A stretch of DNA of 64,000 nt from Candidatus Magnetocorallium paracelense (GTDB lineage: Bacteria > Nitrospirota > Thermodesulfovibrionia > Thermodesulfovibrionales > Magnetobacteriaceae). Position 1 is the stretch's first letter. Every line of letters starts with the position of its first letter. The DNA lies in contig JAREWP010000033.1 in assembly GCA_029001845.1 (NCBI GenBank), positions 1-64,000 of the forward strand, given 5' to 3'. The translations under genes were made by a program, and so were the position numbers. Below the pieces are notes generated by a model. The model was given only the letters and a program-made list of their open reading frames with translations, ran no database searches and was not told the origin of the DNA. This document shows positions 35,273 through 56,535 of the stretch, piece after piece.

Positions 35273-36994
35273 TCATTCCGGTGCACTGTTCGTCTGCTTT
35301 TTGGAGATAAAAAATTGCAAGGATAAAAAAAACAAAATAGAAGTAAAGATAACAAAGTTCCTGATTTTCCAACCGGGTGGCCCGTCATAATAGGCATTTA
35401 AAAGATGATTCTCGCCTATTGGAATCTGCACAATCATTCGTCCGTCTCTTGTGAGTTGTTTTTCCAATTCAGAGGGCGGTATCTCTGCATCGTTCAAAAG
35501 AACACGCCAACCCGGTAAATACAACTGGTTGATCAATGCAAAGGTATCTACAGGGGCCTTAATACGATAATGTATCCGGTACCGGTTGTTATCGGATAAG
35601 GGTTCTGAAAAGGCCGGCAGAGGGACACCCAAAAGAGATAAATTCTTTCTGGGAGCATTGGGAGGAAATTTTGCCGCCCTTAGAGGTAAAAACTCATCCG
35701 CCTGAGAGTGGGTAAAAAAATAGTCTGACCGCATTGCTTTCTCCGCTTTCAGCGCTTCCTCTATGTTCAATGGCTTTGCCCCCGGATTTGTACTGAATTG
35801 ATTAAAATTCCAAAGAAGAGTCGTAACCATGCAAATTAGCACCATACCGCTCATTACAAATCTGTTTCTAAAAGAAAGTTTATAAATACCTGCTGCACAT
35901 ATCAATTGAAGTAGGGCGGTTATGGACAGACTGCGCCATGGAAATTGAAAATTTTTAAAAAAAGGCGCCTTTTCCCAAAAGGTTGTGGCTATGGGTGTCA
36001 TAAGAAAAATCAAAGTAATGTAGAGGATGAATGAGATTTGGACGATTCTGCTCTTTCTGCCGATTATAGCGCCGGAGACAGCCAACAGAAAGTGGGGTAA
36101 ACCCAGTTGAAAAGACATCTCGTCATTTGGACCGTTCGCAGACCCTCCAAACTCCCAGGAACGGGAAAAAAACTGTGAAAAATGCACTGTATGCAATTTT
36201 GTCGTCAGATAGCCCTGAAAGACTGCCTCCAGATTTACATACTCTTTCAATTGCAGATAAGTGAGCCAGTAGGGCGAACTTAATATCAATCCCATAGCAA
36301 AAGAGAGCCCGGACAGAATAAAAAATCCTTTTCTTTGGGACTTGTTTATTTCAAAGGAAATAAAGAGTGTTATTATAATAAATACCAGATTCAGCAAAAA
36401 GGCCGGAACAGGATGGGAGAACATGATGAACGCAATGGATATGGTAATTCCCCAAAGTTTGGAATTGAGTTTTTCTAAGTTCTCTATGCTGTTTTTAAGC
36501 CGAAGGAGATAATATAGAGGCCATGGCGTCAGTAACATAGCTGTCAGCTCGCTTAAGGCAGCCCTGACGAAGAGGTTTACATAAAGATATGGCGTTAGGA
36601 GAAATAATATCGAGCAAAAGAGGCCGCCTTTATGATCTGTCAGCTCGGAACCCAATTTGTACGCTCCCGCCCCGCCGATAAAAAAAAGTAAAACAATTGT
36701 AATCTGGTGTGTCAACCCTGGATGTACAGGCAAAAAAGAGAAAGGCAGGGCAAGATAAAAAAATCCCGGCGGATAAAATAAAAAAGTGGGGCAGCCGTAT
36801 CCTCCGTAAAGTTCCGGCAGCCATCTCGGATAGAGATTTCCCTGTAAAAAAGACTCCTTAAAGTGCTCCAATAAAGCCAGGGTGCGCCCCCAATCATGGC
36901 TCTTATGCCATACTCCCGGTTTTAACAATGGCAGGAGAAATAGTATGGTTACCATAAAAATCAGGAGATAAGTAAAAAAACCGGATTTTCTCAT
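35273..36994 (-). CDS. PTPS-related multi-pass membrane protein
   Basis: A 573-residue inner-membrane protein with about eleven helices and a C-terminal soluble part. HKSHDWGRTLALLEHFKES and GNLYPRWLPELYGGYGCPTFLFYPPGFFYLA match the 6-pyruvoyl-tetrahydropterin-synthase-related (PF10131-type) membrane family, often found in polysaccharide loci and resembling lipid-linked sugar transferases. The C-terminus (LPGWRVLLNDAEIPPSE) is like YfhO-type sugar-binding ends. Its ATG overlaps the stop of the Rpn fragment (TAATG), so its original 5' region was replaced. Confidence 0.75.
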   Translation of the reverse strand: MRKSGFFTYLLIFMVTILFLLPLLKPGVWHKSHDWGRTLALLEHFKESFLQGNLYPRWLPELYGGYGCPTFLFYPPGFFYLALPFSFLPVHPGLTHQITIVLLFFIGGAGAYKLGSELTDHKGGLFCSILFLLTPYLYVNLFVRAALSELTAMLLTPWPLYYLLRLKNSIENLEKLNSKLWGITISIAFIMFSHPVPAFLLNLVFIIITLFISFEINKSQRKGFFILSGLSFAMGLILSSPYWLTYLQLKEYVNLEAVFQGYLTTKLHTVHFSQFFSRSWEFGGSANGPNDEMSFQLGLPHFLLAVSGAIIGRKSRIVQISFILYITLIFLMTPIATTFWEKAPFFKNFQFPWRSLSITALLQLICAAGIYKLSFRNRFVMSGMVLICMVTTLLWNFNQFSTNPGAKPLNIEEALKAEKAMRSDYFFTHSQADEFLPLRAAKFPPNAPRKNLSLLGVPLPAFSEPLSDNNRYRIHYRIKAPVDTFALINQLYLPGWRVLLNDAEIPPSELEKQLTRDGRMIVQIPIGENHLLNAYYDGPPGWKIRNFVIFTSILFFLSLQFFISKKQTNSAPE

Positions 36995-37363
36995 TATAAT
37001 TTTTCCGTCTTCAATATTTCTCTGACAAAATCCACTTCCAACTCCAATACATCTGCGATATGTTCAGGCTGCATATTTGCTCTTTTATATAGTTTTACTA
37101 TGGACTCATGCACTCCTCTTTCCATTCCTCTTTCCATTCCCCTTTCCATCCCTTTTTCCATTCCCTTTTCCATTCCCTTTTTCATTCCTATTCTTTCGGC
37201 AGTCGTTACATACGGCATCTTTCTCTCCTCCTCATATTTTATGATCTCCTCATGAAACTTTATGGACAACTCATCAGGTAAGCCCATTATCCAGTCTATG
37301 AACCTGTATAAATTCAGAATATCCCTCTTCTCATATCTCTTTCCATACAACGCTTTTACCTGG
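36994..37363 (-). pseudogene. truncated second copy of the Rpn-type gene (C-terminal third)
   Basis: About 118 residues (from MYGKRYEKRDILNLY) are nearly identical to the end of the gene at 33259-34194. Homology stops at about 37363 (within the codons for VKALYGKGYEKRD), where sequence becomes unrelated, so the nuclease core is missing. It has one more GMER tetrapeptide than the full copy. The last residues (FVREILKTEKL) differ from the full copy. Probably a rearrangement product, and it runs directly into the next gene. Confidence 0.85.
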
Positions 37364-37628: not shown

Positions 37629-38663
37629 ATGACAGTAGAATCGATGAATAAAAACAAAAACAGCGACGCCATAAGTCTCTATGATCTGTTATCGATCATA
37701 TGGAAAAGGAGAGTATTACTCTCCCTTACGATCGCTCTGGTAATGGTTATAACCGCACTGACCAACTTTAGGATGGAAAAAATTTTCAGGTACAGGTTCT
37801 TTATACAACAAGCACCACTCTCTGTAGAAGAATTCAATATCCATAATTTTTTTCTTTTACCTGCCAACCAGATAATCGATTTAATAAAAACTGAGAATAT
37901 TCGCAGATTTGGCATTGACATCGAGCCGATCAAGTCCTTAACGGCTATCGATAGAGGGGCCAATACGATAGAGGTTGTCGTCGATACGACTGACATCGCT
38001 AATATCGGGCAGTTGAGAAAGAACATGGTTCATTATCTTAATCGGTGCGATCCTGTAATACAAAAAAGAGACAAATTGATATCTGAACAGAGAGAAAATC
38101 ATAAACAAAAAATCAGACAAAGTAAGAGAGAGCTCAGAGAAGGCGAATTGAAAGTCATACAACAAAAAATAGATATTTTGGAACTAAAGATTGAAATAAT
38201 GAGCGAAAAAGATGCTTATGAAAACAAATGGAAAGAACTTCAAAAGACAACGGCGGACAGGGAAGATAAAAATAATCATTCGATTCACGATCCGTCAAAA
38301 AAGAAAGACCTCTTCGATGACGATATTCAGGATGCTTTCGATATAAATTCAGAGGAGAATCTTTTACGTTACAAGAAACAACTGCTGGCATATAAATCGG
38401 ATCGATATCGTTTGGAGTTACAGGCGCTTCGGGAATTGCAGAGTTTGAACGATCAACAAGTGCAACAGGGCGTAAAAGAGGATGATTCAATTCTAAGCAA
38501 AAAGGTGAAGGCCTTTACCTTTTTCAATGCAACAAAGGAAGCGATCCTATCCGATGAACCTATCAGACCCAAAACATCAAAGAACATAGCGCTTTCAGGT
38601 ATCCTTTCTCTTTTGATCGGTACCATTCTGGTTACGATACAGGAGGTTATCAAGAGGAGATGA
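37629..38663 (+). CDS. Wzz-like polysaccharide chain-length/transport protein
   Basis: 344 residues. N-terminal ISLYDLLSIIWKRRVLLSLTIALVMVITAL (membrane helix about 29-47), a long charged, coiled-coil periplasmic part (about 140-290) and a C-terminal helix near 320-340 (IALSGILSLLIGTILVTI) form the two-helix topology of polysaccharide copolymerases (Wzz/PCP). No kinase domain follows. Such proteins set chain length of O-antigen, EPS or capsule. Neighbouring glycan genes at 50-56 kb agree. Start is ATG 37629 or ATG 37644; weak ribosome site. Confidence 0.8.
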   Translation: MTVESMNKNKNSDAISLYDLLSIIWKRRVLLSLTIALVMVITALTNFRMEKIFRYRFFIQQAPLSVEEFNIHNFFLLPANQIIDLIKTENIRRFGIDIEPIKSLTAIDRGANTIEVVVDTTDIANIGQLRKNMVHYLNRCDPVIQKRDKLISEQRENHKQKIRQSKRELREGELKVIQQKIDILELKIEIMSEKDAYENKWKELQKTTADREDKNNHSIHDPSKKKDLFDDDIQDAFDINSEENLLRYKKQLLAYKSDRYRLELQALRELQSLNDQQVQQGVKEDDSILSKKVKAFTFFNATKEAILSDEPIRPKTSKNIALSGILSLLIGTILVTIQEVIKRR

Positions 38664-39744: not shown

Positions 39745-39824
39745 ATTTACAAAGGGGAATCGTTTTGATTATTTTTAGGTTTACTAAAAAAAACAGTAAG
39801 AAACAGACATGGGGAGGAAGGATA

Positions 39825-41291
39825 ATGACTCAATCGTTACAGCCTTTCAGCAGCAGTTTTACATCGGACATTCCCGATATATTGACGGAATTGGGGTGCA
39901 GCATTGCACTGACCACATATCAGGCGGGAAAGGTTATCTTTATCAGCGCCGACAGAAACGCTCTGATCCAACTGGCCCGCACTTTCAACACACCCATGGG
40001 GATCACCCATAGCGGAAGACGCATGGGAATCGTTACTCTCGATGAAGTAGTCGTATTTGCCAACGATTCAGACTTCGCATGGAATTATCCCAAACAGCCC
40101 GAAACCTATGACGCCTTCTACCTGCCCAGGTCCGTGTACTATACAGGAACCATAGACCTCCACGACATCGCCTGGGGAGAGGCGGGGTTGTGGGGGGTGA
40201 ATACGCTTTTTTCCTCTCTTTCCCTAATCGATGAGGAGTACAGCTTTACTCCCAAGTGGACCCCTCCCTTTATTAGGGAGTTACAGCCTGAGGACAGATG
40301 CCATTTAAACGGAATGGCTATGGCGGACGGGGCGCCCAAATATGTAACTGCTTTGGGAGAGAGCAACCACAAAGAGGGGTGGCGTGAGAACAAGTACTCA
40401 GGGGGCATTATTATGGAAGTCCCCACAAAGGAGATCCTCTTCAGAGGGCTTTCCATGCCTCACTCCCCCCGTGTGATCGACGATAAGCTCTATTTTCTCA
40501 ATTCCGCCGCCGGAGAGGTGATGGCAGCCGAACCGGAGCAGGGGATTGTGGAGAGTGTGAACCAGGTGCCGGGATACGCCAGGGGGCTTGCGGGATATGG
40601 GGATTATCTCTTTGTAGGGACATCCCAAATCAGAGAAAAACATCAACACAGCGACATGCCCATAGCAAAGGGCGAGACCTTTGCCGGTATTGTGGTGATC
40701 CACCGTCCTACGGGCAGGATAGCAGGGAGCATACGGTACCACACCACCTGTAAGGAGATATACGATGTGGCAGTATTGCCCGGAGTTATCAGACCGGGCA
40801 TATTGAATCACACCTCCTCTTTTCACAGGAATCTGCTCTCCATGCCGGGAGACTATTTTTACAAGGATATGGAGGAGTTTCTTCCTGAGGGGAGGGACTG
40901 TGCTCCGGTAAGTCTCGGTGTATTAAAGGGCGGTGAAAATCCTAACCGGATTATGGAGAGAGTCGCAAAAGGGGTAGTAACCGTGGCCCTGCTAGGAGGT
41001 CTAATTATCCATACTCCCGATATTGCGAATGCCGTTACTCCCAGCTTTACAGAAAAGACAGGGGCCAATAATCCTTTTAACGGAGTAACTCATCAATTGA
41101 ACCCAAGACCCACATTTATAGATATAGACAATGACAGCGATACTGTTAACGATGACATCTTTATCGGGAAGTCTGGCGGAGAAATCATATACTATAACAA
41201 TACAGCCACATACAACACGACTCCGGCCCCCACCCTGGATGAGTGGGGGATGATCATACTGCTGGCTATGACCATGGTGGGACTGGCTTAA
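39825..41291 (+). CDS. TIGR03032-type protein fused to an IPTL-CTERM tail, paralog 1
   Basis: 488 residues from ATG 39825 (GGGGAGGAAG before it). Residues 1-365 match TIGR03032 (GSSFTSDIPDIL-like start, FNTPMGITHSGRRMGIV, RCHLNGMAM, LSMPHSPRV). At about 377-402 (MERVAKGVVTVALLGGLIIHTPDIANA) an internal signal-peptide-like helix follows. A short FG-GAP/VCBS-like repeat (PTFIDIDNDSDTVNDDIFIG) precedes PTLDEWGMIILLAM, the IPTLxxWG-type sorting motif and membrane helix. The usual basic tail is cut off: TAT seen in paralogs 2 and 3 is TAA here (41289-41291). The codons for NYRKNRDEP still follow. Predicted: cytoplasmic domain, helix, exported C-terminal part; sorting may fail. Confidence 0.85.
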   Translation: MTQSLQPFSSSFTSDIPDILTELGCSIALTTYQAGKVIFISADRNALIQLARTFNTPMGITHSGRRMGIVTLDEVVVFANDSDFAWNYPKQPETYDAFYLPRSVYYTGTIDLHDIAWGEAGLWGVNTLFSSLSLIDEEYSFTPKWTPPFIRELQPEDRCHLNGMAMADGAPKYVTALGESNHKEGWRENKYSGGIIMEVPTKEILFRGLSMPHSPRVIDDKLYFLNSAAGEVMAAEPEQGIVESVNQVPGYARGLAGYGDYLFVGTSQIREKHQHSDMPIAKGETFAGIVVIHRPTGRIAGSIRYHTTCKEIYDVAVLPGVIRPGILNHTSSFHRNLLSMPGDYFYKDMEEFLPEGRDCAPVSLGVLKGGENPNRIMERVAKGVVTVALLGGLIIHTPDIANAVTPSFTEKTGANNPFNGVTHQLNPRPTFIDIDNDSDTVNDDIFIGKSGGEIIYYNNTATYNTTPAPTLDEWGMIILLAMTMVGLA

Positions 41292-41471: not shown

Positions 41472-42377
41472 ATGGGTTATATAGACAGAACGTTAAAGAT
41501 CATCAGCAGACTTCATCCGGAATGGATAGGCAAGTTGATTTTTTCGGGTAAAGGAGAAGTGGAGTCGATGAGGGCCGTCGGACTGGAGCTGAACATACAC
41601 GAAAAGAGGGTTGATAACGCTTTTGAACTTTTATTGAAAGATGGAGAAACCAAATATTTATTGTTAGAATTTTTATTCGGGGAGAGAACCTTTGAACTGC
41701 ACAAATACTTTATAAAGACAGCCATGGCGACAGATCATTATGGAAAAGGGAAGGTAGCTACGGTAGTGGTCCAGTTGACGGAAGGATCAGGGAAGCCCAT
41801 AAAACCGGTATATGAAGTTGAGTTAGAGGGAATCAGGAATCTATTTGAGATAAGGGTAGTGTATTTAAACGAGTACATTGAAAAGATAGAGAGCGGAGAG
41901 CTATATGAATTTGCGCCATTACTACCTTTGCTAAAGGGCGGAGCGGATGAGAGACTTTTAAGAGAGGTAAAGGATTTAATCAAAACAGAGCCGGACCAAA
42001 AGAAGCTGTCGGAGTTATACTCAACTGCTTTGACGGTAGCCGGCAGGTATATTACAAAAGAATTCTTATGGGAATTCTTTAAGGAGGAATTAGAAATGAT
42101 ACAAGAGTCACCCATTGTACAGGAATGGATTAATGAGGGGTACAGGAAAGGCGAAGACGAAGGGTACAGGAAAGGCGAAGACGAGGGTTATCTTAAGGCA
42201 GGACGTGAGATGCTGCTTGATATACTGGAGGAGAGATTCGGATTGTTAAAGAGAAGTATTATAGATGAAATAAGAGGGATTGATTCTCATGAATTTCTTA
42301 AAGCCCTCAATCGGCATGCTCTTCGAGTGGATAACCTGGATCGTTTTATTGAGATCGTTCAACAAGCGAATGATTAG
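41472..42377 (+). CDS. Rpn-like/DUF4351-type nuclease-family protein
   Basis: 301 residues. The core (LELNIHEKRVDNAFELLLKDG, KYLLLEFLFGERTFELHKYFI and KVATVVVQL) has a PD-(D/E)XK-like D...E-F-L arrangement; the E-x-Q/K motif is degraded, so catalysis is uncertain. The tail has two GYRKGEDE repeats like the GMEK repeats of the 33-kb gene, and a final helix (EMLLDILEERFGLL). It lies between two broken cassette pieces. Role unknown; the family is linked to recombination. Confidence 0.7.
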   Translation: MGYIDRTLKIISRLHPEWIGKLIFSGKGEVESMRAVGLELNIHEKRVDNAFELLLKDGETKYLLLEFLFGERTFELHKYFIKTAMATDHYGKGKVATVVVQLTEGSGKPIKPVYEVELEGIRNLFEIRVVYLNEYIEKIESGELYEFAPLLPLLKGGADERLLREVKDLIKTEPDQKKLSELYSTALTVAGRYITKEFLWEFFKEELEMIQESPIVQEWINEGYRKGEDEGYRKGEDEGYLKAGREMLLDILEERFGLLKRSIIDEIRGIDSHEFLKALNRHALRVDNLDRFIEIVQQAND

Positions 42378-42795: not shown

Positions 42796-43041
42796 GTGTG
42801 TCAGCTCCCCTTGGTTCTATCACTCGTTTTATGGATCCCGGGCGGCAAAACGGTAAATAATATGAAGCGCATTTCCTGTCTGTTGCTGTTATGCTATCTC
42901 TGGCAGGTAGTGGTCATCGGCTTTATCGGCGCCTATAAAATCCCCCTCTTTCCAAGATTCCTAAGGGCTTTATCGATAGCCCCGCCTTTTATCTACTGGT
43001 TTTATCTGCTGTTTCTCACACAGAGAGGCAAAGAAGAATGA
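42796..43041 (+). pseudogene. 3' remnant of an exosortase gene
   Basis: The last about 70 residues (MKRISCLLLLCYLWQVVVIGFIGAYKIPLF onward) match the end of the exosortase at 48250-49752 (VKRISCVLLFCYLWQLTVIGFI). Homology begins near 42805. All catalytic residues are missing. A short frame with ATG exists but no ribosome site. It shows the exosortase region was once duplicated behind paralog 1. Confidence 0.8.
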
Positions 43042-43151: not shown

Positions 43152-43418
43152 TCATTTCACAGGTCGATAGACATCTTTACGATGCCCGACCTTTACAACC
43201 TGAACTGTCAATTCGTCATCCTGTATGGAATAGATGATACGATACCTGCCATGCCTGAGACGATATCTCTCCTGGCCGGATAATTTTTGACAGCCTGGAG
43301 GTCTTGGATTATGACCTAAAGATTCGATAACTTTCAGTATATTTTTTAGAGTGTTCTTCGGGACAGATTCAAAATCCTTCCACACCGACCTTTTAAAAAA
43401 TATTTTATATTCGGCCAT
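43152..43418 (-). CDS. RelE/ParE-superfamily toxin
   Basis: 88 residues with the RelE fold: MAEYKIFFKRSVWKDFESVP, LGHNPRPPGCQKLSGQERYRLRHGRYRIIYSI and a basic C-terminus (VKVGHRKDVYRPVK). Basic/aromatic residues typical of ribosome-dependent mRNA cleavage (R-x-R-x-G-x-Y-R) are present. It overlaps the upstream antitoxin gene by 14 bases. Likely an active or recently active toxin-antitoxin module. Confidence 0.9.
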   Translation of the reverse strand: MAEYKIFFKRSVWKDFESVPKNTLKNILKVIESLGHNPRPPGCQKLSGQERYRLRHGRYRIIYSIQDDELTVQVVKVGHRKDVYRPVK

Positions 43419-43638
43419 CCTTCTTTAGCCTTTTAACCATTTCATCATAGCCGATTAAAGGTTCTTCGGCTCTCTCATCAAAAGACGAAAGGTCTTCGGC
43501 GTCCTCAGCCAAGGCTTCTCTTACAGCCCTATTCACCAGATCGGAGACAGAGCAGGAAGTTTCAACTGACTTTAATTTAAGAGCCCTGTGTAAAACAGTG
43601 TCTAAATAAATGGTAGCACGTTTCGTAGGTGCAGCCAT
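43405..43638 (-). CDS. ribbon-helix-helix antitoxin of the RelE-type toxin
   Basis: 77 residues from ATG 43638 (GGAGGGA before it; an upstream start at 43668 is rejected). The N-terminal RHH motif is KRATIYLDTVLHRALKLKSVETSCSVSDLVNRAV; the acidic tail (EDAEDLSSFDERAEEPLIGYDE) would cover the toxin. The palindromic TAACGTTTTAACG-like stretch upstream is the likely operator. A broken copy of its 5' end is at 42613. Confidence 0.85.
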   Translation of the reverse strand: MAAPTKRATIYLDTVLHRALKLKSVETSCSVSDLVNRAVREALAEDAEDLSSFDERAEEPLIGYDEMVKRLKKDGRI

Positions 43639-43990
43639 AACATTCCCTCCAAATATACTTTTTGACATTATAACGTTTTAACGCTTTAATGTCAAAAGTG
43701 CTTTCGCAAAAAAATCTTCTGAAGAATATTTTCGCCTCTTCACAGGGAGAGGAAATTTTGTGAAGTGCATGGGAGGAAACCGGGGGGATCCAAAAATGCT
43801 TCCTTCCATACACAAAAGACTATACTTCTAACCGGGTAAATTTATGAATTTGAAAATGGTTGTTGTAAGACGCCCGGAAGTCAGCCGAAGGCGCTACTTT
43901 AAGGTGCTTATTTATAGCGCCTTAACAATAAAAACGAAATTATCCGCGACTCATATGTTTTACCAATTATCTCTAAGATGTATATAAACA
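43639..43990. other. intergenic region upstream of paralog 2
   Basis: About 350 bases. The first 70 are the antitoxin leader/operator (ACGTTTTAACGCTTTAATGTC). No gene is recognised in the rest. A stretch with an inverted TAAGGTGCTT/GGCGCT-like composition near 43890 has no close copy in the window. AT content rises towards paralog 2. Confidence 0.4.
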
Positions 43991-44005: not shown

Positions 44006-44131
44006 ACTCAGATATCTTTTTTTGTTAACATGGAGACTTTCGATTCAAATTACAGAATACACTCTTTTTTGAGCAAATATTCCACAAAAAGAGAGATTAT
44101 AAAAAATCATTGCTATAGGGAGGAAAGAATC

Positions 44132-44779
44132 ATGAAGCAATCGCTACCACCATTCAGCAGCAGTTTTACATCGGATATTCCCGATATATTAACGGAACTG
44201 GGATGCACCATTGCAGTAACCACTTATCAGGCAGGGAAAGTTATTTTTATAAGCGCCAATAAGGACGGTATTATACAACTGGCCCGTAACTTTAACACCC
44301 CCATGGGGATCACTCATAGCGGAAGGCGGATGGGAATCGTTACCAAAGGGGAAGTGGTCGTACTGGCCGACGATCCCAATTTCGCGATGAATTATCCGAA
44401 GCAGCCTGATACGTATGACGCCTTTATAGGGGAAAATGACGGAGTTATTAATTATTATAAGAATACGGGAAGCAGCACCAGTCCGACCTTTACCGCACAA
44501 ACAGGAGCCAATAATCCTTTTAACGGAGTGGATGTGGGGAGTGCGAGTTTTCCAGCATTTGCGGATATAGACGGAGATACCAGTGATGTCGAAGACGACG
44601 CCTTTATCGGGGAAAAAGACGGAACTATCAATTACTATAATAATACAGCCACCTACTCCACTACTCCCGCTCCAACCCTGGATGAGTGGGGGATGATCAT
44701 ACTGCTGGCCATGACCATGGGGGGGCTGGCTTATAATTACAGGAAGAATCGGAATGAGCCTGTTGGGCTTGCGGGGTGA
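44132..44779 (+). CDS. internally deleted TIGR03032/IPTL-CTERM protein, paralog 2
   Basis: 215 residues from ATG 44132 (AGGGAGG). The first 98 residues match paralogs 1 and 3 up to QPDTYDAF, then jump to IGENDG, the inside of the FG-GAP/VCBS-like part. About 350 residues, including most of TIGR03032 and the internal signal-like helix, are absent. The join falls at GACGCCTTT, shared by both break points in paralog 3. The remainder has two DAFIGExDGxINYY units and the complete tail PTLDEWGMIILLAMTMGGL followed by YNYRKNRNEP. With no export signal it would be at most tail-anchored. Confidence 0.8.
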   Translation: MKQSLPPFSSSFTSDIPDILTELGCTIAVTTYQAGKVIFISANKDGIIQLARNFNTPMGITHSGRRMGIVTKGEVVVLADDPNFAMNYPKQPDTYDAFIGENDGVINYYKNTGSSTSPTFTAQTGANNPFNGVDVGSASFPAFADIDGDTSDVEDDAFIGEKDGTINYYNNTATYSTTPAPTLDEWGMIILLAMTMGGLAYNYRKNRNEPVGLAG

Positions 44780-45947: not shown

Positions 45948-47462
45948 ATGAGCCAATCGTTACAGCCTTTCAGCAGCAGTTTCACATCGGACATTCCCGA
46001 TATATTGACGGAACTGGGATGCACCATTGTATTAACCACATATCAGGCCGGCAAGGTTATTTTTTTAAGCGCCAACAAGGACGGTCTGGTCCAATTGGCC
46101 CGCAACTTCAATACACCCATGGGGATCACCCATAGCGGAAGGCGCATGGGAATCGTTACCCATGATGAAGTGATCGTACTGGCCAACGATCCAAACTTCG
46201 CAAGGAATTATCCGAAGCAGCCCGATACTTATGACGCCTTCTATCTGCCCAGGTCCGTGTACTATACAGGAACCATAGACCTCCACGATATCGCCTGGGG
46301 AAAGCCGGGCTTGTGGGGTGTGAATACCCTCTTTTCCTCCCTTTCCATAATAGACGATGAGGAATACAGCTTCAATCCCAAATGGTCCCCTTCATTTATT
46401 ACTGAGCTGCGCCCCGAGGATCGCTGCCATTTAAACGGCATGGCAATGGTCGATGGCGAGCCCAAATATGTGACAGCCCTTGGAGAGAGCAATAACAAAG
46501 AAGGATGGCGTGAGAACAAACTATCGGGCGGCGTTATCATGGAAGTACCTTCAAAAGAGATCCTATTCAGGGGGCTCTCCATGCCCCACTCCCCTCGTGC
46601 GATTGGCGATAAACTCTATTTTCTCAATTCCGCTACCGGGGAACTGATGGCGGCGGAGCCGGAACAGGGGATCCTATAGAGCGTCAACCGAGCGCCCGGA
46701 TTTGCGAGGGGCCTTGCCGGATATGGGGACTATCTCTTTGTGGGAACATCCCGGATCAGAGAGAAACATCAGCACAGCGATATGCCGGTGGCAAAGGGCG
46801 AGACCTTTGCCGGAGTTGTGGTAATCCACCGTCCGACCGGCAATATAGCGGGAAGCATACGCTACCATACGACCTGTAAGGAGATATACGATGTGGCTGT
46901 ATTGCCCGGTGTTATCAGACCGGGCATATTGAATCACAGCTCCTCTTTTCACAGGAATCTGCTCTCCATGCCTGGAGACTATTTTTACAAGGATATGGAA
47001 GAGTTTTTTCCTGAGGGGAAGAGATTCGATTCAGAGAGTCTCGGAGTATTAAAGAGCAGTGAAAATCGTAACCGCTTCATGGAGAGAGTCGCAAAAGGGG
47101 TTGTAACCGTTGCCCTGGCCGGGGGGCTTACTATTCATGCCCCTGATATTGCAAATGCAGTTACCCCGGCTTTTACTGAAAAAACAGGGAACAATAATCC
47201 TTTTAACGGAGTGGATGTGGGGAGTATTAGCGCACCTGCATTTACGGATATAGACTCAGATAGTGACACTATTGACGATGACGCCTTTATCGGGGAATTT
47301 GACGGAACTGTCAACTACTATATCAATACAGCAGCATATACCAATACTCCCGCCCCCACCCTGGATGAGTGGGGAATGATCATACTACTGGCCATGACCA
47401 TGGGGGGACTGGCTTATAATTACAGAAAGAATCGGGATGAACCTGTGGGGCTTGCTGGGTAG
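45948..47462 (+). pseudogene. TIGR03032/IPTL-CTERM protein with in-frame amber codon, paralog 3
   Basis: One frame of 505 codons runs from ATG 45948 (GGGAGGAC before it) to the stop at 47460-47462, interrupted by TAG at 46677-46679. Paralog 1 has GAG (Glu) at that place, and no bases are lost, so this is a simple nonsense change. TIGR03032 (1-365), an internal signal-like helix (MERVAKGVVTVALAGGLTIH, about 378-397, then APDIANA), one FG-GAP/VCBS-like repeat (PAFTDIDSDSDTIDDDAFIGE), and the complete tail PTLDEWGMIILLAMTMGGLAYNYRKNR are all preserved. Without readthrough only the first 243 residues are made. Intact codon structure beyond the stop suggests recent loss. Confidence 0.8.
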
Positions 47463-47515: not shown

Positions 47516-47947
47516 TTAGATAAGGAAGGGATTGATCACCGTGACGGTTTGAAAACATTGGCCACTGTTTAGGTCTTCCGTGAGTAAGTAAGTGGCTTTG
47601 CCTTCGATGGCGCTGACGACAATCAGACTGTCCCACCAGGAGAGCATGTGTTGTTGCTGTAAGTCGATTGCCTTTAGAAAGGATTTTCGGGTTGGAGAAT
47701 AAGTTGGCCAAGTGGAGAGGTCTTCGGCGATTTCTTTACGCTTGACACCATCTATCTTATCTGCGAATTTATTGAGAAGAGCAGCCTGAACTTCAAAAAG
47801 AACCTGAAAACTCAAGAGTCCATTGCCGGATCGCCATAGAATTTCTATAAATTCCCATGCTCTTTTTTGTTTCTTTGGCGAGTCCTCATCTAAAGAATAG
47901 AGAAAGATATTGGTATCAACAAAACATCGGCTATCTGTATAATTCAT
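47516..47947 (-). CDS. PIN-domain toxin (VapC-like)
   Basis: 143 residues. The PIN acidic set is seen: FVDTNIFLYSLD (D10 region), VLFEVQAALL (Glu), WWDSLIVVSAI (Asp) and LLTEDLNSGQ (Asp). These bind Mg for RNA cleavage. It overlaps its antitoxin by 17 bases. Lies between paralog 3 and the exosortase gene on the opposite strand. Confidence 0.9.
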   Translation of the reverse strand: MNYTDSRCFVDTNIFLYSLDEDSPKKQKRAWEFIEILWRSGNGLLSFQVLFEVQAALLNKFADKIDGVKRKEIAEDLSTWPTYSPTRKSFLKAIDLQQQHMLSWWDSLIVVSAIEGKATYLLTEDLNSGQCFQTVTVINPFLI

Positions 47948-48158
47948 CCCGGCTCCAAATTATATCGTCGTTAAGACCCAGATGATTGTTTTTACAATTG
48001 GATAAAAAACGTTCAACAGATGAAACCTCTTTTTTCCTTTGAAAATTTTCATCAATAATCACAACGACGTGTGCATCACCTGTGGCTATATCGCCGGGAA
48101 GTTGAATACTCAACATATGATCTTCTCCAATGGTTAGCGTGGTTTCAATTGTTTTCAC
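47931..48158 (-). CDS. antitoxin of the PIN-domain toxin
   Basis: 75 residues: a DNA-binding-like start (METTLTIGEDHMLSIQLP-like; MKTIETTLTIGEDHML), VVVIIDEN and an acidic tail (NNHLGLNDDIIWSRDELYR). The layout fits DUF2281/VapB-like antitoxins. A GGAGGAG ribosome site precedes the ATG. Upstream AT-rich sequence near 48180-48230 probably holds the promoter. Confidence 0.75.
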   Translation of the reverse strand: MKTIETTLTIGEDHMLSIQLPGDIATGDAHVVVIIDENFQRKKEVSSVERFLSNCKNNHLGLNDDIIWSRDELYR

Positions 48159-48249: not shown

Positions 48250-49752
48250 TTGATTACTAGGGGACGGAAAAATCGGGACAGGCAAAAAAATGAGCGTCAT
48301 TTTTTACAATTTTATCAGGTTCCGAACCGGGAGCGATCTATCAGACACAACGACATAAGAGTTTACATCTTCCTAAGATTCATAATCATATTTCCATCCC
48401 TTTACTTTATAACCACCGTCGATTTTATCAATGACTACCTTATCATGCCCTTTACCTCTCTGACCGCTTATCTCTCGTCATTATCTCTTAACCTCCTGGG
48501 TATACACAATAAAATCAACGGACTCTGCCTGGTTGCGCCCAACAGGTCCGTCGATATCACCCGTGAATGTTCCGCTATTGAGGTGTTTGTTTTCTATCTC
48601 TCCTGGATCGTGGCCTATTATAAAGCGGTGAAAGAGAAGATCATCGGAGCGGTTGTCGGTTTTTCGATTATCTTTTTAACCAATTTGCTCAGAGTTATGG
48701 CCATCTTTATCGCCATTGTCTATTTGGGAAGGTATGAACTCTTCCATCAATATATCGGACAGGCGATGATCATTGCCGTTACCTTCGGGGTGCTTCAGTT
48801 GTGGACCAGGGATAAGCTAACCCCATCGGCCCTTCTGAGCAAACAGAATTTGAATATATTAAAAAGAGCGGCCCTCTTCTTTTTCACTGTTGCGGCGGGG
48901 TTGATCATACTGGACAGGGTGAAGAACAGGGAATTGGCGGATTATCTGACAACCATTGTCCTGAACCATACCCGGTTCCTGCTGGGATTATTCGGCATTC
49001 ATACGACAGTGGATAACCTGGTAATCCGCGGCCAGGGGGCGAACATCCTGTTCGCCTCGGGATGTCTCACCACCCCTCTGGCTGTATTATATATCGCCTT
49101 TGTCCCGGTCTCCGGATTTTCCAATAAAACAAAATCTCTCCTTCTGTTGGCCGCCATTCCCATCTTTTACCTTATCTCCCTTTTCCGGGTGGCCTCCTTT
49201 TTCATCTTTCCCTTTGTAAAACCGGATCAATCCAACTTCTTTTACAACCATCAATATACTGTTTTTTTCATCGTCCTTATTGTATGCACGACTCTTTTCT
49301 ACTATTACAGAGAGGAACCTAAAAGGGCGTTTAAGGTTTTCATACTCACACTGTTAACGGCTCCGGTCTCTATCTTTATCTGGCGGCAGGCGGGACCATT
49401 TTATAACGACTATCTGCTCAATTCACTGCCGGCGTATTTTTTCGGCGTCAGGGAGCTTGCATATGATCCGAATCGGATATTATCATCCATGCCTGCCTTT
49501 GAGTTCGTGCTTACGGTATCGCTCTTTTTGTGGTTTCCGGAGAGCGGAATTGTGAAAAAGGTGAAACGAATCTCCTGTGTGCTGCTGTTTTGCTATCTCT
49601 GGCAACTGACAGTCATCGGCTTTATCGGCGCCTATAAAATCCCCCTTTACCCAAGATTCCTGAGGGTTTTATCGATCGCTCCGCCTTTTGTATACTGGTT
49701 TTATTTATTAGTTCGCACGGAAAGAGGCAAAGGCGCACAGTATAAGGAATAG
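48250..49752 (+). CDS. two-domain exosortase (XrtH-like)
   Basis: 500 residues, 11 or more membrane helices. It belongs to the exosortase/archaeosortase group that processes C-terminal sorting tails; the IPTLxxWG tails nearby point to the exosortase H type. Domain 1 (about 45-190) has C107 (ITRECSAIEVF), R148 (TNLLRVMAIF) and H166 (ELFHQYIG). Domain 2 (about 225-350) repeats the set: C272 (FASGCLTTPL), R313 (ISLFRVASFF), H334 (YNHQYTV). Cys-to-Arg spacing is 41 in both, and GIH-to-Cys is 23 in both. A possible degenerate third unit (about 380-480) lacks Cys and Arg. The start is uncertain (TTG 48250; no clear ribosome site). Confidence 0.85.
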   Translation: MITRGRKNRDRQKNERHFLQFYQVPNRERSIRHNDIRVYIFLRFIIIFPSLYFITTVDFINDYLIMPFTSLTAYLSSLSLNLLGIHNKINGLCLVAPNRSVDITRECSAIEVFVFYLSWIVAYYKAVKEKIIGAVVGFSIIFLTNLLRVMAIFIAIVYLGRYELFHQYIGQAMIIAVTFGVLQLWTRDKLTPSALLSKQNLNILKRAALFFFTVAAGLIILDRVKNRELADYLTTIVLNHTRFLLGLFGIHTTVDNLVIRGQGANILFASGCLTTPLAVLYIAFVPVSGFSNKTKSLLLLAAIPIFYLISLFRVASFFIFPFVKPDQSNFFYNHQYTVFFIVLIVCTTLFYYYREEPKRAFKVFILTLLTAPVSIFIWRQAGPFYNDYLLNSLPAYFFGVRELAYDPNRILSSMPAFEFVLTVSLFLWFPESGIVKKVKRISCVLLFCYLWQLTVIGFIGAYKIPLYPRFLRVLSIAPPFVYWFYLLVRTERGKGAQYKE

Positions 49753-50032: not shown

Positions 50033-50260
50033 TTACTTGCTTAAAAGAGCTATAAATTTCTCTACAGTAATATTAGCTTTACGTATTTGAGTTCGTAAAA
50101 GACCTTTATCAAGATATTTATGTAAAGGTATCGTTAAGACAACTGTCATTCCTTTTTTAATTAAGCTGACATGACTTCCCTTCTGCCTGTCTTTAATCCA
50201 CCCTGCTTTTTCAAACGCTCTAATGGCTTCATTGCCGGAACATACAGGCAGCTTAGGCAT
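50033..50260 (-). CDS. hicA: HicA-type mRNA interferase toxin
   Basis: 75 residues. MPKLPVCSGNEAIRAFEKAGWIKDRQKGSHVSLIKKG contains the double-stranded-RNA-binding-like fold and the catalytic His (GSHV). Start ATG 50260 overlaps the upstream hicB stop by one base (TGATG). Likely functional as a pair. Confidence 0.93.
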   Translation of the reverse strand: MPKLPVCSGNEAIRAFEKAGWIKDRQKGSHVSLIKKGMTVVLTIPLHKYLDKGLLRTQIRKANITVEKFIALLSK

Positions 50261-50466
50261 CAAACAGCAACCTCTAATTCCTCTATTTCTAAGGGGATTG
50301 GCAAATTATTGGCCTTTCTGGTGCCTATACTTAACTCGATAGCTTCTTTTATGTTATTCATTGCTTCTTCTTTTGTTTTCCCTTGGGTTACACACCCGTC
50401 GAGTGAGGGGCATTCAGCGATAATATAGCCATCTTCTCCTTGAGTTAATGTTATAAAAAACCTCAT
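50260..50466 (-). CDS. hicB: HicB-type antitoxin
   Basis: 68 residues from ATG 50466 (AGGAGG ten bases before it). It shows the partial RNase-H-like fold: MRFFITLTQGEDGYIIAECPSLDGCVTQGKTKEEAMNNIKEAI. The short C-terminus (LEIEELEVAV) lacks an obvious DNA-binding extension. Neutralises HicA. Confidence 0.93.
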   Translation of the reverse strand: MRFFITLTQGEDGYIIAECPSLDGCVTQGKTKEEAMNNIKEAIELSIGTRKANNLPIPLEIEELEVAV

Positions 50467-50566
50467 TTTTAACCTCCTCATTAAACATTATTTATTTTAA
50501 GACCAAGGATTTTTAAAAACATATTAACTTTCATCATCATTACCATTAATTGGTTTTAAACTATAA

Positions 50567-50886: not shown

Positions 50887-52248
50887 TTATATATACCTCT
50901 TCAAATCCCCCAAATATGCCTCATAATGTTTCCATTTATTGACGGACCCCCTATAGATCGGACGGCGTACCTGCCAATTGCTTGCCGTACGGACAATTTT
51001 TTTCTGTTTGTAAAAAGAAAAACAGCGATCGTCCCTGTCAAGCTCCAAAAAATCCAATAGTTTGGGAATATTGGTTTCCGAATCATAAACCAGCGCCTCA
51101 TAATGGATATCGAATATCTCCAGGGGCAAACACTCTTTCCAATGGTTCATTAAACGGCGATACTCTCGGAAATACCTGCCAAGGGTCTCCGGATCATATG
51201 AATATTGACCACCGGCGTGAAAACAGGTAAAGTAGTTGGACAGGCAGGTATCCATCCCGTTTCTTAGGCAATGTACGATTTTCACCTTTGGAAAGATCAG
51301 AGCGATAAAGCCGAGAAATAAAAAATTGGCAGGCATTTTATCCGCGATGCAAAGGACCTTCTCTTTTTTGCATTTCTCGCTGATAATCGATAAATAGCTC
51401 TCTCCCTGTCTCTTCAATACTTCATGATTCGCCATCTTTATTGCTTCGAGATAGTCGCCCTCCTTTCCGGTCAGACCCGGTGTCTCATTGGCGATTCTTT
51501 CGATATCGTCCAGTTCCCCCACGCCATAAGCACGAGGATGGGCGGCAATGATTTGTTCGACAAGGGTTGTTCCCGATCTCGGCATACCGACAATGAAAAC
51601 AGGAAGTCTTGTCTCTAGCCCCGATCTGTCATGACTCCCAAAGAATCCCTCTGTGAATGTCTTAATCGTTCTATTTACAAAATTCACCAAAGGGCGCAGA
51701 TCCGGTTTCATTAAATGATGCTTAATAAGATTTCCCTTTTCAAAAAAACCGAAGGCCTCTTTGAACATTCCGCAATCATCAAAGATTTTCCCTAAAGCAA
51801 AAAAGAGATAAGCCCTGTCCGGTGTGGATAAATGATCTCTCTTTAACAGCGCTTCTATCGACTTTACGTCTTCGTCATCGGCGGAGGAGTATTTTCTACA
51901 CTGCGTGATGTGCCTGTACGTGTCTGCAAGAGTCGGTTTTATGCGGATCGCCTCTCTGTAGGCCTCTTCGGCCTCTTTGATACGTCCCTGATCTTTCAGA
52001 GCGTTTCCCAAATTGTTATATGCCTCCGCAAAAAGAGGTTCGCCCTCTATCGCCTCCCTGTAAAGAGCTTCCGCCACTTCCGCCTTTCCCTGAGACCAGT
52101 AAACATTACCCAATATGTTTAAAGCGCGAGAATTTCGGGGAGAGGTCTCCATAATTTGTAAAAGCGTACGCTCCGCCTTCTCGTATTTCCTCTTCTCATA
52201 CAAATAGACGGCATACTCAAGGGCCTTTTGAAGGGGTACTCTTGTCAT
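50887..52248 (-). CDS. TPR-sulfotransferase
   Basis: 453 residues. Three or four TPR repeats (about 10-110, e.g. AEAYNNLGNALKDQGRIKEAEEAYREAI) precede a sulfotransferase domain whose 5' phosphosulfate loop is PVFIVGMPRSGTTLVEQII (about 216-234). FPKVKIVHCLRNGMDTCLSNYF is the 3'-phosphate-binding segment. It transfers sulfate from PAPS to a protein, glycan or lipid acceptor. TIGR03032-type genes and TPR-sulfotransferases have been noticed near each other; here both are in one region. No signal peptide is seen. Confidence 0.88.
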   Translation of the reverse strand: MTRVPLQKALEYAVYLYEKRKYEKAERTLLQIMETSPRNSRALNILGNVYWSQGKAEVAEALYREAIEGEPLFAEAYNNLGNALKDQGRIKEAEEAYREAIRIKPTLADTYRHITQCRKYSSADDEDVKSIEALLKRDHLSTPDRAYLFFALGKIFDDCGMFKEAFGFFEKGNLIKHHLMKPDLRPLVNFVNRTIKTFTEGFFGSHDRSGLETRLPVFIVGMPRSGTTLVEQIIAAHPRAYGVGELDDIERIANETPGLTGKEGDYLEAIKMANHEVLKRQGESYLSIISEKCKKEKVLCIADKMPANFLFLGFIALIFPKVKIVHCLRNGMDTCLSNYFTCFHAGGQYSYDPETLGRYFREYRRLMNHWKECLPLEIFDIHYEALVYDSETNIPKLLDFLELDRDDRCFSFYKQKKIVRTASNWQVRRPIYRGSVNKWKHYEAYLGDLKRYI

Positions 52249-52283
52249 GATTTATTCCGAAAATAGACTGACTACGAGAAAAT

Positions 52284-52382
52284 GTAGGGGCAGACCTGCG
52301 TGTCTGCCCCGGCGGTGGCGAAGGAATAAAACGCGCCGGAAACCGACACACGGCCGGGGCGAACACGTAGCTTCGCCCCTAC
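52284..52382. repeat. GTAGGGGC-type inverted repeat, family D copy 2
   Basis: GTAGGGGCAGACCTGCGTGTC (52284 on) and GAACACGTAGCTTCGCCCCTAC (to 52382) are inverse at their ends, matching 44905-45038. The middle is shorter. Located between the sulfotransferase and the ligase genes. Confidence 0.7.
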
Positions 52383-52436
52383 GATTCATCATGCATAATT
52401 TTTATGTTTTGTGGTGACCTGCGGTGTCATAGACGT

Positions 52437-54923
52437 TTATTGTAAGTTGTATTCCAAAATTTTTTTATCAAATCCGGTTTTTAACTTCAAGGCGGTTTTA
52501 AACGTTGCTTCGGCTTTCTCAAAATCTTTTTGTAACATATGGATTTTACCCTTTATAATATAAAAACCGGCTTTAATGAAATCGATATTCCCGTTATCGG
52601 AATATCTTAATACCAACTCATCTATTACTTCAAGGGCCTTATGGCTCTCTTTTTTCTGTAGTTTTTCTATAATATTGTCCATCAAATCAAAAGAAATATC
52701 GGACATGGACGATACATAGTACTCCCGGTTCACCTCATTCAGCGCCCTGAGATACTCCTCCTGATTTACAAACTTTAATCGAGTATCGATTAAGGCCCTC
52801 TCGAAATCTCCTTTTTCAATATAACCGATAATATGATTATAATAAAGCTCCTGTCTCATTCTATAGGCGTTGCCGTAACGTCTGTGTTTGTAACTCCTGA
52901 TCATAAAGGCGGACAAAAAAGAGTCTTCCCCCTTTGCCCGGTCGCCCAATATAATATGGAGTTTTCCCAGATGCTCATAATAACGCCAATTATCAGGATA
53001 GGCCCTTGTAATTTTATCGATCTGTTTTAAAGCGCTTTTTGCATCCCCCTCTTTCAACAGATGAAAAAAATTGTGATACCCCCACTCCCTGTGCAAAAGA
53101 GAGATTTCTTTGTTGATCCACTGATAATTGGGGGACAATCGTTTTAGATCCTGTAAAATCTCCTTAGTAAAGTCGGAAGGCTCCTTTCTGACGCCATAAG
53201 CAAGGGCATTGGTATCCAACAGAACGGCCCGTGACAGAATATAGGGATTGTAAGGATTATGAAGACAAGCCCTTTTTACCATGTCCATGGCTTTCCGGTA
53301 ATCCTCCATGCTTTTGGTATAATGAAACCTCTTTATTAGAGCTCTGGCTGAAATATCTTCATAGTAATAATTATCAGGCGCCGATTTTAATCCCTTTGAG
53401 ATGAGATCTTCGATTCGGGGCCACTCCTTTTCCACATCCCTCTCTCTTACTATGTGAAACAACCTGTCAGCATATACTTTGTCCGTCGATTCGATGGCAA
53501 GGAGGATCAAAACTGTTGTGATAAAGGAAGCGAAGAGAAATCTGAGAGGTCGCTTTGCTTTGGCGATACCGGTTGCAGGAGGCGCCTGAATACAAAGGGA
53601 AAGAGACAAACCGCAGAGTATCCAGAAAAATGAATTCAGCACTATATCGGGCCAGCCAAAGATATCCTGAACAAGAAAGCCTGACAGGGATGAAAGGAAG
53701 GCCAAAGAGAGAAGTCCGGTATTACCGTCAGCACGATTGTTTCGATATCTTTTGATAAGAAAGAGAAAAAGAGAGACAATGAAGATCGAATAGAATAAAA
53801 GCCCGGGAATACCTGTTGAGACAGCCATCTGTAAATAGCCGTTGTGAACATTTGACGGTATGGTGTCTCCCCTGTAATATTGATTGAACTTCAATGGCTT
53901 GTATTCAGGAAAGAGGTGTCTGTAGCCGTCAAAACCAACTCCCTTGAGGGGGTAGTCACCGATCATGTAAACAGCGGCTTTATAATGAAGGAACCTCCCC
54001 TCTATGGACTTGTCGTTATTTATATAGAAAACGGACTGAAATCTATTGGCGATTCGTTCAAGGCGATTCGTGCTCTCTTTTAAGCTTAAGATACTCATTG
54101 GATGGAAAATATACTTTTTGTCATTTTTTAAAAGATCGAGATTTAATGAAGAAAAAGCAATAGCAAGGAAACTTATGATAATGAGATAAAAGGCCAATGT
54201 CTTTAATTTAACAGCTTTTATTTTTATATACGAGATAAGTAATATTGAAAAGGAGATAACCGCTCCGACCCAGGGGCCTCTTGCATTTGTTGAAAAAAAG
54301 GCAATCAGAAACAGAACGAAAGTCATTATAGGAAATATCTTTTTAAATCCCCTGGATAAAAGAATAAAGGTGAATACAAAGGGCAATGAAAGACCAAGCA
54401 CAGCAGCAAAAATTACCGAATTCCCAAAGGTCGATCCGAATCTGAATCCACCGCCCCATTGGACCGGGTCGAGTCGGAGTTCGTGGATAAGGGCATAGAG
54501 AGCAGCAGGTATTAATGCAAATATAAACAGTTTTACAATTCTCCGAATTCCTGTTTCTTTCAAAGGGAGTGTGGCGGTCACCCAAAAGAGCAGGAGGTAA
54601 TACAGATGAGTCAGCAAGCCGTTATTTGTGTGATATAAACCGTGTAAAGCGGTATATTTGTGTAATGCAAAAAAAGTGGTTCCTGTCCACCAGAGGGCCG
54701 TGGCGAGTATAGGATAAGCAATTGAAGCCGGTATTTTCTTTAAACGGCCCTTTATTAAATAATAAGACCATAGTATGGTTAAAGGGACGGCTATAATCCT
54801 CAATGCCGCCAGTTTGGGCAGAGAGAACTGGGAGGAGAGTTTAATACTGAATATCAGAGAAAGAAAAATAAATAAGAAACCGTATAAAATTTCTTCAATA
54901 GGAATGCTTTTTTTACACATCAT
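52437..54923 (-). CDS. O-antigen ligase/polymerase (Wzy-C) with TPR tail
   Basis: About 828 residues. The first about 480 hold some 12 membrane helices of the Wzy_C/O-antigen ligase type, including a periplasmic loop (SLKESTNRLERIANRFQSVF...GVGFDGYRHLFPEYKPL, about 290-350) with the conserved GxGxxxxRxxxP-like signature. The rest is periplasmic TPR (e.g. FEKAEATFKTALKLKTG). It would polymerise or attach a glycan. The annotated ATG at 54950 lies inside the 134-bp element A3, so the start is more likely ATG 54923 or 54920; no strong ribosome site is visible. Confidence 0.85.
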   Translation of the reverse strand: MMCKKSIPIEEILYGFLFIFLSLIFSIKLSSQFSLPKLAALRIIAVPLTILWSYYLIKGRLKKIPASIAYPILATALWWTGTTFFALHKYTALHGLYHTNNGLLTHLYYLLLFWVTATLPLKETGIRRIVKLFIFALIPAALYALIHELRLDPVQWGGGFRFGSTFGNSVIFAAVLGLSLPFVFTFILLSRGFKKIFPIMTFVLFLIAFFSTNARGPWVGAVISFSILLISYIKIKAVKLKTLAFYLIIISFLAIAFSSLNLDLLKNDKKYIFHPMSILSLKESTNRLERIANRFQSVFYINNDKSIEGRFLHYKAAVYMIGDYPLKGVGFDGYRHLFPEYKPLKFNQYYRGDTIPSNVHNGYLQMAVSTGIPGLLFYSIFIVSLFLFLIKRYRNNRADGNTGLLSLAFLSSLSGFLVQDIFGWPDIVLNSFFWILCGLSLSLCIQAPPATGIAKAKRPLRFLFASFITTVLILLAIESTDKVYADRLFHIVRERDVEKEWPRIEDLISKGLKSAPDNYYYEDISARALIKRFHYTKSMEDYRKAMDMVKRACLHNPYNPYILSRAVLLDTNALAYGVRKEPSDFTKEILQDLKRLSPNYQWINKEISLLHREWGYHNFFHLLKEGDAKSALKQIDKITRAYPDNWRYYEHLGKLHIILGDRAKGEDSFLSAFMIRSYKHRRYGNAYRMRQELYYNHIIGYIEKGDFERALIDTRLKFVNQEEYLRALNEVNREYYVSSMSDISFDLMDNIIEKLQKKESHKALEVIDELVLRYSDNGNIDFIKAGFYIIKGKIHMLQKDFEKAEATFKTALKLKTGFDKKILEYNLQ

Positions 54924-54941
54924 CGTATGTACATAGTGAAT

Positions 54942-55075
54942 CAATACCATTAACTTAAGGAGTGAAGTGCCTTCCGACAGAAGCGGGTCATGTCTGAGAA
55001 GGCGCAGCGCAGCGGAGCCTTCGAGTTTAGCCGGTGAAGGCGGGAGGTGCTTTACTCCTTAAGTTAATGACATTG
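54942..55075. mobile_element. 134-bp MITE, copy A3, with 9/10-bp target duplication
   Basis: Starts CAATACCATTAACTTAAGG and ends CCTTAAGTTAATGACATTG. CATAGTGAAT precedes it (54932-54941) and CATGGTGAAT follows it (55076-55085), a duplication with one later change. It is in the leader of the ligase gene on the minus strand. The following 330 bases to the glycosyltransferase hold no gene. Confidence 0.92.
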
Positions 55076-55410
55076 CATGGTGAATTGCAATAGTACACAA
55101 TATGTTAACATAATTTTTTAAAGTCACGGTTTAGCTTCACAGTCGCTGCTGTGAAACGATTTGTAGCTTCTCAATAAGCTGAGGTATACAACCCTCCGGC
55201 TTTTTTAAGGGGGAATACTTGTCAACGCCATCCGTTCCGATTCGTAAATCAAAATTTAACGCAATTCACTGAATACTCATAAATAGTCAGTCCTTAATTC
55301 GACGCAATTATAACAACAGTGCTATAATGAGCGGCTGCAGAAATGAGAAGCAATATATCCTGTTACGAAACATTTATGCGAGGCAAGCAAAAAATTTCAT
55401 AAATATCGTT

Positions 55411-56535
55411 ATGAACATAGGGATAAACGTAATCACTTCCAACAAAACCCTTCGAGGTACGGACCGGTATGCTTTGGAAACCTTAAAAAGCCTTGCCGAA
55501 ATCGACAAAAGGAACAACTACTTTATCTTTCATGCGCACTGGCAGAAATATATAGGTATACCGAAATGCGAAAATTTTCATTCCATCCGCTTGGCGCCGC
55601 CTCCGGGCATTGCTTCCAAAGCGCTTTGGAATGCTTTTCAGTTTCCCGAAGTTACGAAAAAGTATAAACTGGACCTGATCCACTACACAAACCCTATACC
55701 TCTGGTGAGAAAGGAACGCCCTGTAATCGTCACTATTCACGATCTGGCGGAATTTTTTATCCCTGCAAAATACGGAATATTTAAAAGCCGCGCAAAGCGC
55801 TTCTCTGTGAGATTGAGCATAAAAAAGGCCGATTATATTTTAGCTGTATCGGAAAGCACAAAAAGAGGAATAATCGATCTCTTCGATTCCGATCCCGATT
55901 CCATTGGCGTAACTCTGGAGGGTCCCCCCAAGGCGAGCGCTTTTCATATAAGCGATCTTGATTATATCCACAGCAAATACGGTTTCGGGAAAAAATACAT
56001 CCTCTATGTAGGAGTTATGGAAAGAACAAAGAAGATCGACGCCATTATAAGGGCCTTTTCCAGACTGAGTGAGCCACTCAAAAACAGTTATAATGTCGTA
56101 ATCGTTGGTAACAAGGGAAACGCCTCTAAAGAGGTCGAAAAAGCCGTACAAGAGGAGGGCTTACATAACAAAGTGTTTTTCCCTGGCCATGTTTCGGAAG
56201 AGGATCTCTATTGCATTTACAAAAAGGCGTCTCTCTTTGTTTTTCCCTCCCTGGTGGAGGGATTTGGCCTGCCGGTGCTGGAGGCCATGAGATACGGAGC
56301 GCCGGTCGTGGCGTCCAACTCCTTTTCCATCCCTGAAGTCGCCGGAGACGCCGCGATGCTCGTGGACCCGCGCAATGTAAATGAATTAACAGATGCAATC
56401 AGCGCTGTTTTAACAGACAATGGCCTGAGAAAGCGACTCATTGATAAAGGGCTGAAAAGAGTATCACAGTTTTCCTGGACTAAAACTGCGGAAAAAACAT
56501 TGGCAATGTATAAAATGGCGGGAAGTTTGATATAA
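55411..56535 (+). CDS. GT4-family glycosyltransferase
   Basis: 374 residues from ATG 55411 (MNIGINVITSNKTLRGTDRYA, a natural N-terminus for GT-B enzymes); a longer frame from 55327 is possible. VTIHDLAEFF, VGVMERTKKIDAIIRAF and the E-x7-E motif SLVEGFGLPVLEAMRYG are typical of GT4. It transfers a nucleotide-sugar to a glycan acceptor, probably for the surface polymer of this region. A terminator follows. Confidence 0.92.
   Translation: MNIGINVITSNKTLRGTDRYALETLKSLAEIDKRNNYFIFHAHWQKYIGIPKCENFHSIRLAPPPGIASKALWNAFQFPEVTKKYKLDLIHYTNPIPLVRKERPVIVTIHDLAEFFIPAKYGIFKSRAKRFSVRLSIKKADYILAVSESTKRGIIDLFDSDPDSIGVTLEGPPKASAFHISDLDYIHSKYGFGKKYILYVGVMERTKKIDAIIRAFSRLSEPLKNSYNVVIVGNKGNASKEVEKAVQEEGLHNKVFFPGHVSEEDLYCIYKKASLFVFPSLVEGFGLPVLEAMRYGAPVVASNSFSIPEVAGDAAMLVDPRNVNELTDAISAVLTDNGLRKRLIDKGLKRVSQFSWTKTAEKTLAMYKMAGSLI

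Follow-up and report, generated by a model that had tools for sequence, protein, structure and literature searches.

Within the window, that is, the whole 64,000-nucleotide stretch analysed from the genome of Candidatus Magnetocorallium paracelense, we characterized a gene whose product (P0001) carries two exosortase domains in one chain (D1 and D2) followed by a C-terminal membrane domain (D3) (Table 1). A preliminary description of this DNA had proposed two consecutive exosortase units with complete Cys/Arg/His sets, and the presence of two exosortase domains was borne out, both halves scoring as exosortase by profile. The six residues it named (C107, R148, H166, C272, R313 and H334) lie at the positions it gave; C107/R148/H166 and C272/R313 occupy active-site columns, but H334 is off by one, the residue that matches the D1 histidine being N333.

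Table 1 Features of the tandem exosortase gene and of its upstream neighbourhood (window positions)
Feature	Position	Strand	Basis or description
Tandem exosortase gene	48250..49752	+	Single open frame, 500 aa, TTG start
D1, residues 36-196, exosortase domain, canonical C107/N145/R148/H166/G170/Q171	48355..48837	+	Profile scores, alignment, AlphaFold model
C107 codon (nucleophile column of D1)	48568..48570	+	Alignment
R148 codon (D1)	48691..48693	+	Alignment
H166 codon (D1)	48745..48747	+	Alignment
D2, residues 197-358, second, diverged exosortase domain	48838..49323	+	Profile scores, alignment, profile-profile comparison
C272 codon (D2), invariant 16/16	49063..49065	+	Alignment
R313 codon (D2), invariant 16/16	49186..49188	+	Alignment
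N333 codon (D2), column equivalent to D1 His; next codon is H334	49246..49248	+	Alignment, AlphaFold model
D3, residues 359-492, C-terminal membrane domain without Cys/Arg/His set, where the XrtH-associated partner would sit	49324..49725	+	Model, profile comparison
D3 motif YDPNRILSSMP, residues 405-415, family-conserved	49462..49494	+	Alignment
Candidate substrate 1	39765..41291	+	TIGR03032/DUF4915, signal-like stretch and APTLDEWG-TM tail; in-frame stop removes basic end
Candidate substrate 2	44030..44779	+	Shortened paralogue without large middle part; complete APTLDEWG-TM-RKNR tail
Candidate substrate 3	45948..47462	+	In-frame stop at 46677-46679; complete APTLDEWG-TM-RKNR tail in second piece (46740-47462)
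Remnant, second copy of the tandem gene 3′ end	42796..43041	+	~70 % aa and 79 % nt identity; between candidate substrates

Just upstream of the tandem gene are its candidate substrates, three TIGR03032/DUF4915 paralogues that carry PTLDEWG tails. These tails (APTLDEWGMII-helix-RKNR, complete in two genes and cut short by a stop in the other) fall below the IPTL-CTERM cut-offs, and two of the three genes are broken. A signal-peptide-like stretch (MERVAKGVVTVAL..ANA) occurs inside candidate substrates 1 and 3. The position of the remnant between the candidate substrates suggests that a substrate-plus-enzyme module was probably duplicated, with the loss of one enzyme copy. The genome of the window (G000) contains three more exosortases, on C10, C93 and C83 (L003, L004 and 3848-4147), of which L004 is fused to an XrtH-associated domain, and these could serve the window tails instead of the tandem enzyme. 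Genes for a Wzz-like chain-length protein, an O-antigen-ligase-like protein and a glycosyltransferase are found around the module (37629-38663 and 50887-56535), which fits the exopolysaccharide gene setting usual for exosortases. Around the exosortase region, three sets of two minus-strand genes each (43152-43668, 47516-48158 and 50033-50481) resemble toxin-antitoxin pairs by eye (RelE-like, PIN-domain with a small partner, and HicA/HicB-like). Repeated genes at 33259-34194, 36994-37350 and 41472-42377 have GMEKGMERG- or GYRKGEDEG-type tandem repeats near the C-terminus and resemble, again by eye, Rpn/PD-(D/E)XK transposase-like proteins, one of them having no Pfam match.

Domain searches of each half, which the preliminary description had suggested, matched both D1 and D2 to exosortase profiles. 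Against NCBIfam, D1 scored 69.6 bits to TIGR04177 and 45.3 bits to TIGR04178, and D2 alone scored 34.6 bits (E 1.7e-8) to exosortase X (XrtX) and 23.5 bits to exosortase H (XrtH). D2 alone misses the TIGR04178 cut-off (19.8 bits versus 23); its homology to exosortases is clear by profile comparison (E 5.6e-11). An independent profile built from other exosortases only, with both D1 and D2 left out, gave 81.5 bits (7.9e-24) for D1 and 34.5 bits (2.1e-9) for D2, and hhalign comparison of the D1 and D2 family profiles gave 97.0 % (E 9.3e-11, 123 columns). As judged from sequence, the exosortase likeness of D1 and D2 is far beyond chance. The whole protein falls within the exosortase/archaeosortase superfamily through D1 (TIGR04178 46.7 bits, cut-off 23; PF09721 42 bits, cut-off 25.7), and the Cys, Arg and third polar residue columns of the superfamily are occupied by C/R/H in D1 and by C/R/N(H,S) in D2.

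The best-scoring named family for D1 is exosortase H (XrtH, TIGR04177; IPTL-CTERM TIGR04174, PF18203), which the tandem protein resembles in tail class and active-site columns. XrtH has, however, a single exosortase domain (about 160 aa), whereas the tandem frame encodes two plus D3 and as a whole reaches 76.8 bits against the TIGR04177 cut-off of 86, four relatives scoring 42 to 74.5 bits. The exosortase X profile (NF046081) detects both P0001 domains but describes single-domain proteins, with a cut-off of 170 bits compared to 66 here. No NCBIfam or Pfam model covers both exosortase units, and papers on tandem or double exosortases and IPTL-CTERM, a search that did not extend to the key 2012 archaeosortase/exosortase survey, yielded no description. 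On the question, raised in the preliminary description, of whether the arrangement had been described, neither a curated family nor a paper was found; the protein is, however, not isolated and belongs to a recurring family.

A search for fused double exosortases elsewhere, likewise suggested in advance, identified this three-part architecture, in proteins of about 470-515 aa, in ~15 other genomes reached through a Desulfobacterota record. We used the XrtX profile as the probe for the genome scans. Among 395 genomes of the phylum of G402, entered via record L077 (Desulfobacteraceae bacterium RAAP-1), the scan returned a 497 aa frame with two matches in G686 and a set of frames of ~470-515 aa (577 in G418); ten of these, once read out, were tandem exosortases with the order D1-D2-D3. 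In the class of G629, 11 of 22 genomes had a match (nine full-length, two split or cut off at contig ends), and in the class of G686 full-length copies were present in 4 of 85. The copy in G861 (L216 88-3326) is naturally disrupted, with a transposase gene immediately ahead of the D2 Cys region. The 396 genomes of the window's phylum contained no second two-match frame with the XrtX probe and none with a D2-D3 query, no tandem exosortase was found in 77 genomes of a third phylum (via Nitrospinia record L101), and a peptide-pattern search of viral and genome contigs returned no close relatives. The tandem exosortase is a recurring, so far unnamed family, mainly in a phylum other than the window's. 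P0001 aligns with it along the full length of D1-D2-D3 and has both Cys/Arg pairs, and it represents a new architecture within a known enzyme class that is both recurring and conserved.

In the family alignment (A5, 16 sequences including P0001) both Cys and both Arg are invariant, and active-site residues stay invariant in members only ~20 % identical to P0001. Invariant columns include C107, N145, R148, H166, G170 and Q171 in D1 and H240, C272, P276, Y307 and R313 in D2. D2 has diverged more than D1 (mean identity 0.44 versus 0.49; 6 versus 14 invariant columns), and in P0001 it lacks the N and GQ that are invariant in D1. Only 6 of its 159 columns are invariant, the Cys and Arg among them; six columns drawn at random would include both with a probability of about 0.001. 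Column 333, which matches D1 H166, is N in 13 members, H in two and S in one, while column 334, the histidine of the preliminary description, is mainly F. In a phylogenetic tree the D2 domains, that of P0001 included, group in a single clade (support 0.98), which points to an old fusion of single origin within this sample; support for a D1 clade is weak (0.33).

An AlphaFold model of the full protein built from the 16 sequences was of moderate confidence (pLDDT 73, pTM 0.56), an earlier model of D2+D3 from 7 sequences having been poor (pLDDT 58). D1 and D2 share a predicted layout in which two helices are followed by three short strands and then by three more helices, with C107 and C272 just ahead of the third helix of their repeats, R148 and R313 each 21 residues into the fourth, and H166 and N333 each 4 residues into the fifth (helices 162-185 and 329-355). 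If the second helix of each repeat is assumed to lie at the membrane surface, each repeat would cross the membrane four times with both sites facing outward; the loop charges are compatible with this but are not strong evidence. Comparison of the full model with the PDB gave no credible match (Foldseek best E 0.76; VIA-align best Z 5.4) and a PDB sequence search matched no chain; we make no claim of a new fold. D1 most likely acts as the canonical sortase, and D2 would be a second, diverged site that faces the same membrane side.

We compared the occurrence of the family with that of the IPTL-CTERM signal. TIGR04174 matches above cut-off were present in 14 of 16 tandem-bearing genomes compared to 2 of 11 class-mates without the tandem gene (Fisher p=0.0009) and, within one class, in 8/9 compared to 2/11 (p=0.005), the p-values being optimistic as the genomes compared are kin. 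The tandem protein is the sole exosortase found with TIGR04178 in eight genomes (G629, G418, G491, G788, G686, G842, G850 and G865), seven of which have IPTL-CTERM, with 26 matches above cut-off in G850, while none of seven class-mates with only another exosortase has IPTL-CTERM above cut-off. The tails are C-terminal and of textbook form (IPTLNEWGMII-helix-RRRQ), and tagged genes adjoin or lie near the tandem gene in three genomes, those of the window, L186 (two genes) and L191 (one gene). The accompanying presence of IPTL-CTERM proteins, which characterizes exosortase H, thus extends to most of the family, the window tails being of a sub-threshold PTLDEWG type. G672 and G842 contain the tandem gene with no IPTL-CTERM match and G811 has IPTL-CTERM tails with no exosortase found, mismatches that could reflect incomplete genomes. 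On this genomic association the tandem family most likely cuts and anchors surface proteins with a C-terminal IPTL tag.

D3 has no Cys/Arg/His set, in agreement with the preliminary description of a third unit lacking Cys and Arg, but the exosortase ancestry proposed for that unit found no profile support. In related genomes a membrane protein gene comes after many of the single XrtH-like exosortases, and one such neighbour tested (L005) matches NF041730 (XrtH-associated protein). Other XrtH-like exosortases are fused to the partner domain, including L004, which scores 113 bits against the partner profile. These fusions (L031, L032, L053 and L004) and NF041730 have a multi-helix membrane domain right after the exosortase unit, as in D2+D3, and D2+D3 aligns lengthwise with the L031-type fusions at 95 % probability over 276 columns. 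In contrast, D3 alone matched neither these fusions nor the partner (XrtH_assoc) or exosortase profiles, residues 353-500 matched no family, hhalign of D3 with the partner profile gave 0.2 %, and D3 has its own motif, YDPxRIxSxMP. From its position D3 probably corresponds to the XrtH-associated membrane protein, an equivalence that sequence does not prove. That it is instead a third, degenerate exosortase unit seems unlikely: its modelled long helix followed by three helices loosely recalls the exosortase order minus the strands, but profile comparison with exosortase, D1 or D2 gave at most 4.5 % probability, and the lengthwise alignment of D2+D3 with exosortase-plus-partner fusions favours a partner-type domain.

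We propose, with a probability of about 0.7, that the protein is an XrtH-related tandem exosortase that processes IPTL-CTERM-type tails, with D1 cutting, D2 as a built-in partner and D3 replacing the XrtH-associated protein. An exported substrate would be held by its tail, consisting of the PTLxEWG motif, a membrane helix and a basic end, and D1, with its canonical Cys/Arg/His, would cut near the motif via a Cys-linked intermediate, the substrate ending up anchored at the cell surface. D2, with Cys, Arg and N or H as third residue, would open to the outside of the membrane, as D1 does, and work with D1, either in a second reaction step or as an obligate half-dimer, and D3 would stand in for the separate XrtH-associated membrane protein. 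The analysis itself establishes the two domains, the existence of the family, the conserved Cys/Arg pairs and the genomic association with IPTL-CTERM; what we infer comprises the catalysis, the division of labour between D1 and D2, the role of D3 and the membrane orientation. The Cys-linked intermediate is carried over by analogy from the published model for archaeosortase ArtA, for which such an intermediate and lipid transfer have been proposed (PMC7157517). ArtA, a Cys-based tail-processing enzyme, is in the same superfamily as the tandem protein, but is archaeal, acts on a PGF-CTERM tail and has a single exosortase domain.

The contribution of D2 is where other readings compete with this proposal. 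D2 may be a pseudo-enzyme that retains the fold and its Cys/Arg for structure or for substrate or lipid binding, leaving all chemistry to D1; its greater divergence, the absence of N and GQ in P0001 and a third residue that is N, H or S would fit this, but its Cys and Arg are invariant in 16/16 members despite low overall identity and column 333 is N or H in 15/16, so that we regard this reading as possible but the less probable one. A relay is a doubtful elaboration: cleavage of the IPTL tail and formation of the Cys-linked intermediate would fall to D1, and D2, also on the outer face, would receive the substrate from it and attach it to the anchor. If true, cutting and anchoring would be split between two visible active sites. 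It is improbable that D1 and D2 are two fused independent sortases, each with its own class of tailed substrate. Both have Cys and Arg columns and they form separate clades, but the one tail class searched genome-wide, IPTL-CTERM, is present in 7/8 sole-exosortase genomes and is the only signal class linked to the family so far, which makes two classes of substrate somewhat less likely. The remnant copy and broken neighbours in the same region, together with the relative interrupted by a transposase, could be taken to indicate an accidental fusion, a decaying functionless gene or an assembly artefact. This is very improbable, as the same architecture is kept in ~15 other genomes and the window frame is open with its sites conserved; recurrence of the family already contradicts a fusion by accident or an artefact.

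To our knowledge the chemistry and the anchor of bacterial exosortases are still unresolved. Under the proposed reading of a tandem exosortase with a built-in partner, the family supplies a sorting enzyme for the IPTL-CTERM proteins of genomes outside current family models, and the partner-like domain that it contains may explain the role of the separate XrtH-associated protein. As the tandem protein is the sole exosortase in some genomes, each Cys is separately testable within one protein, which could show whether exosortases act as pairs and makes the family a good test case for how a poorly understood class of sorting enzymes works.
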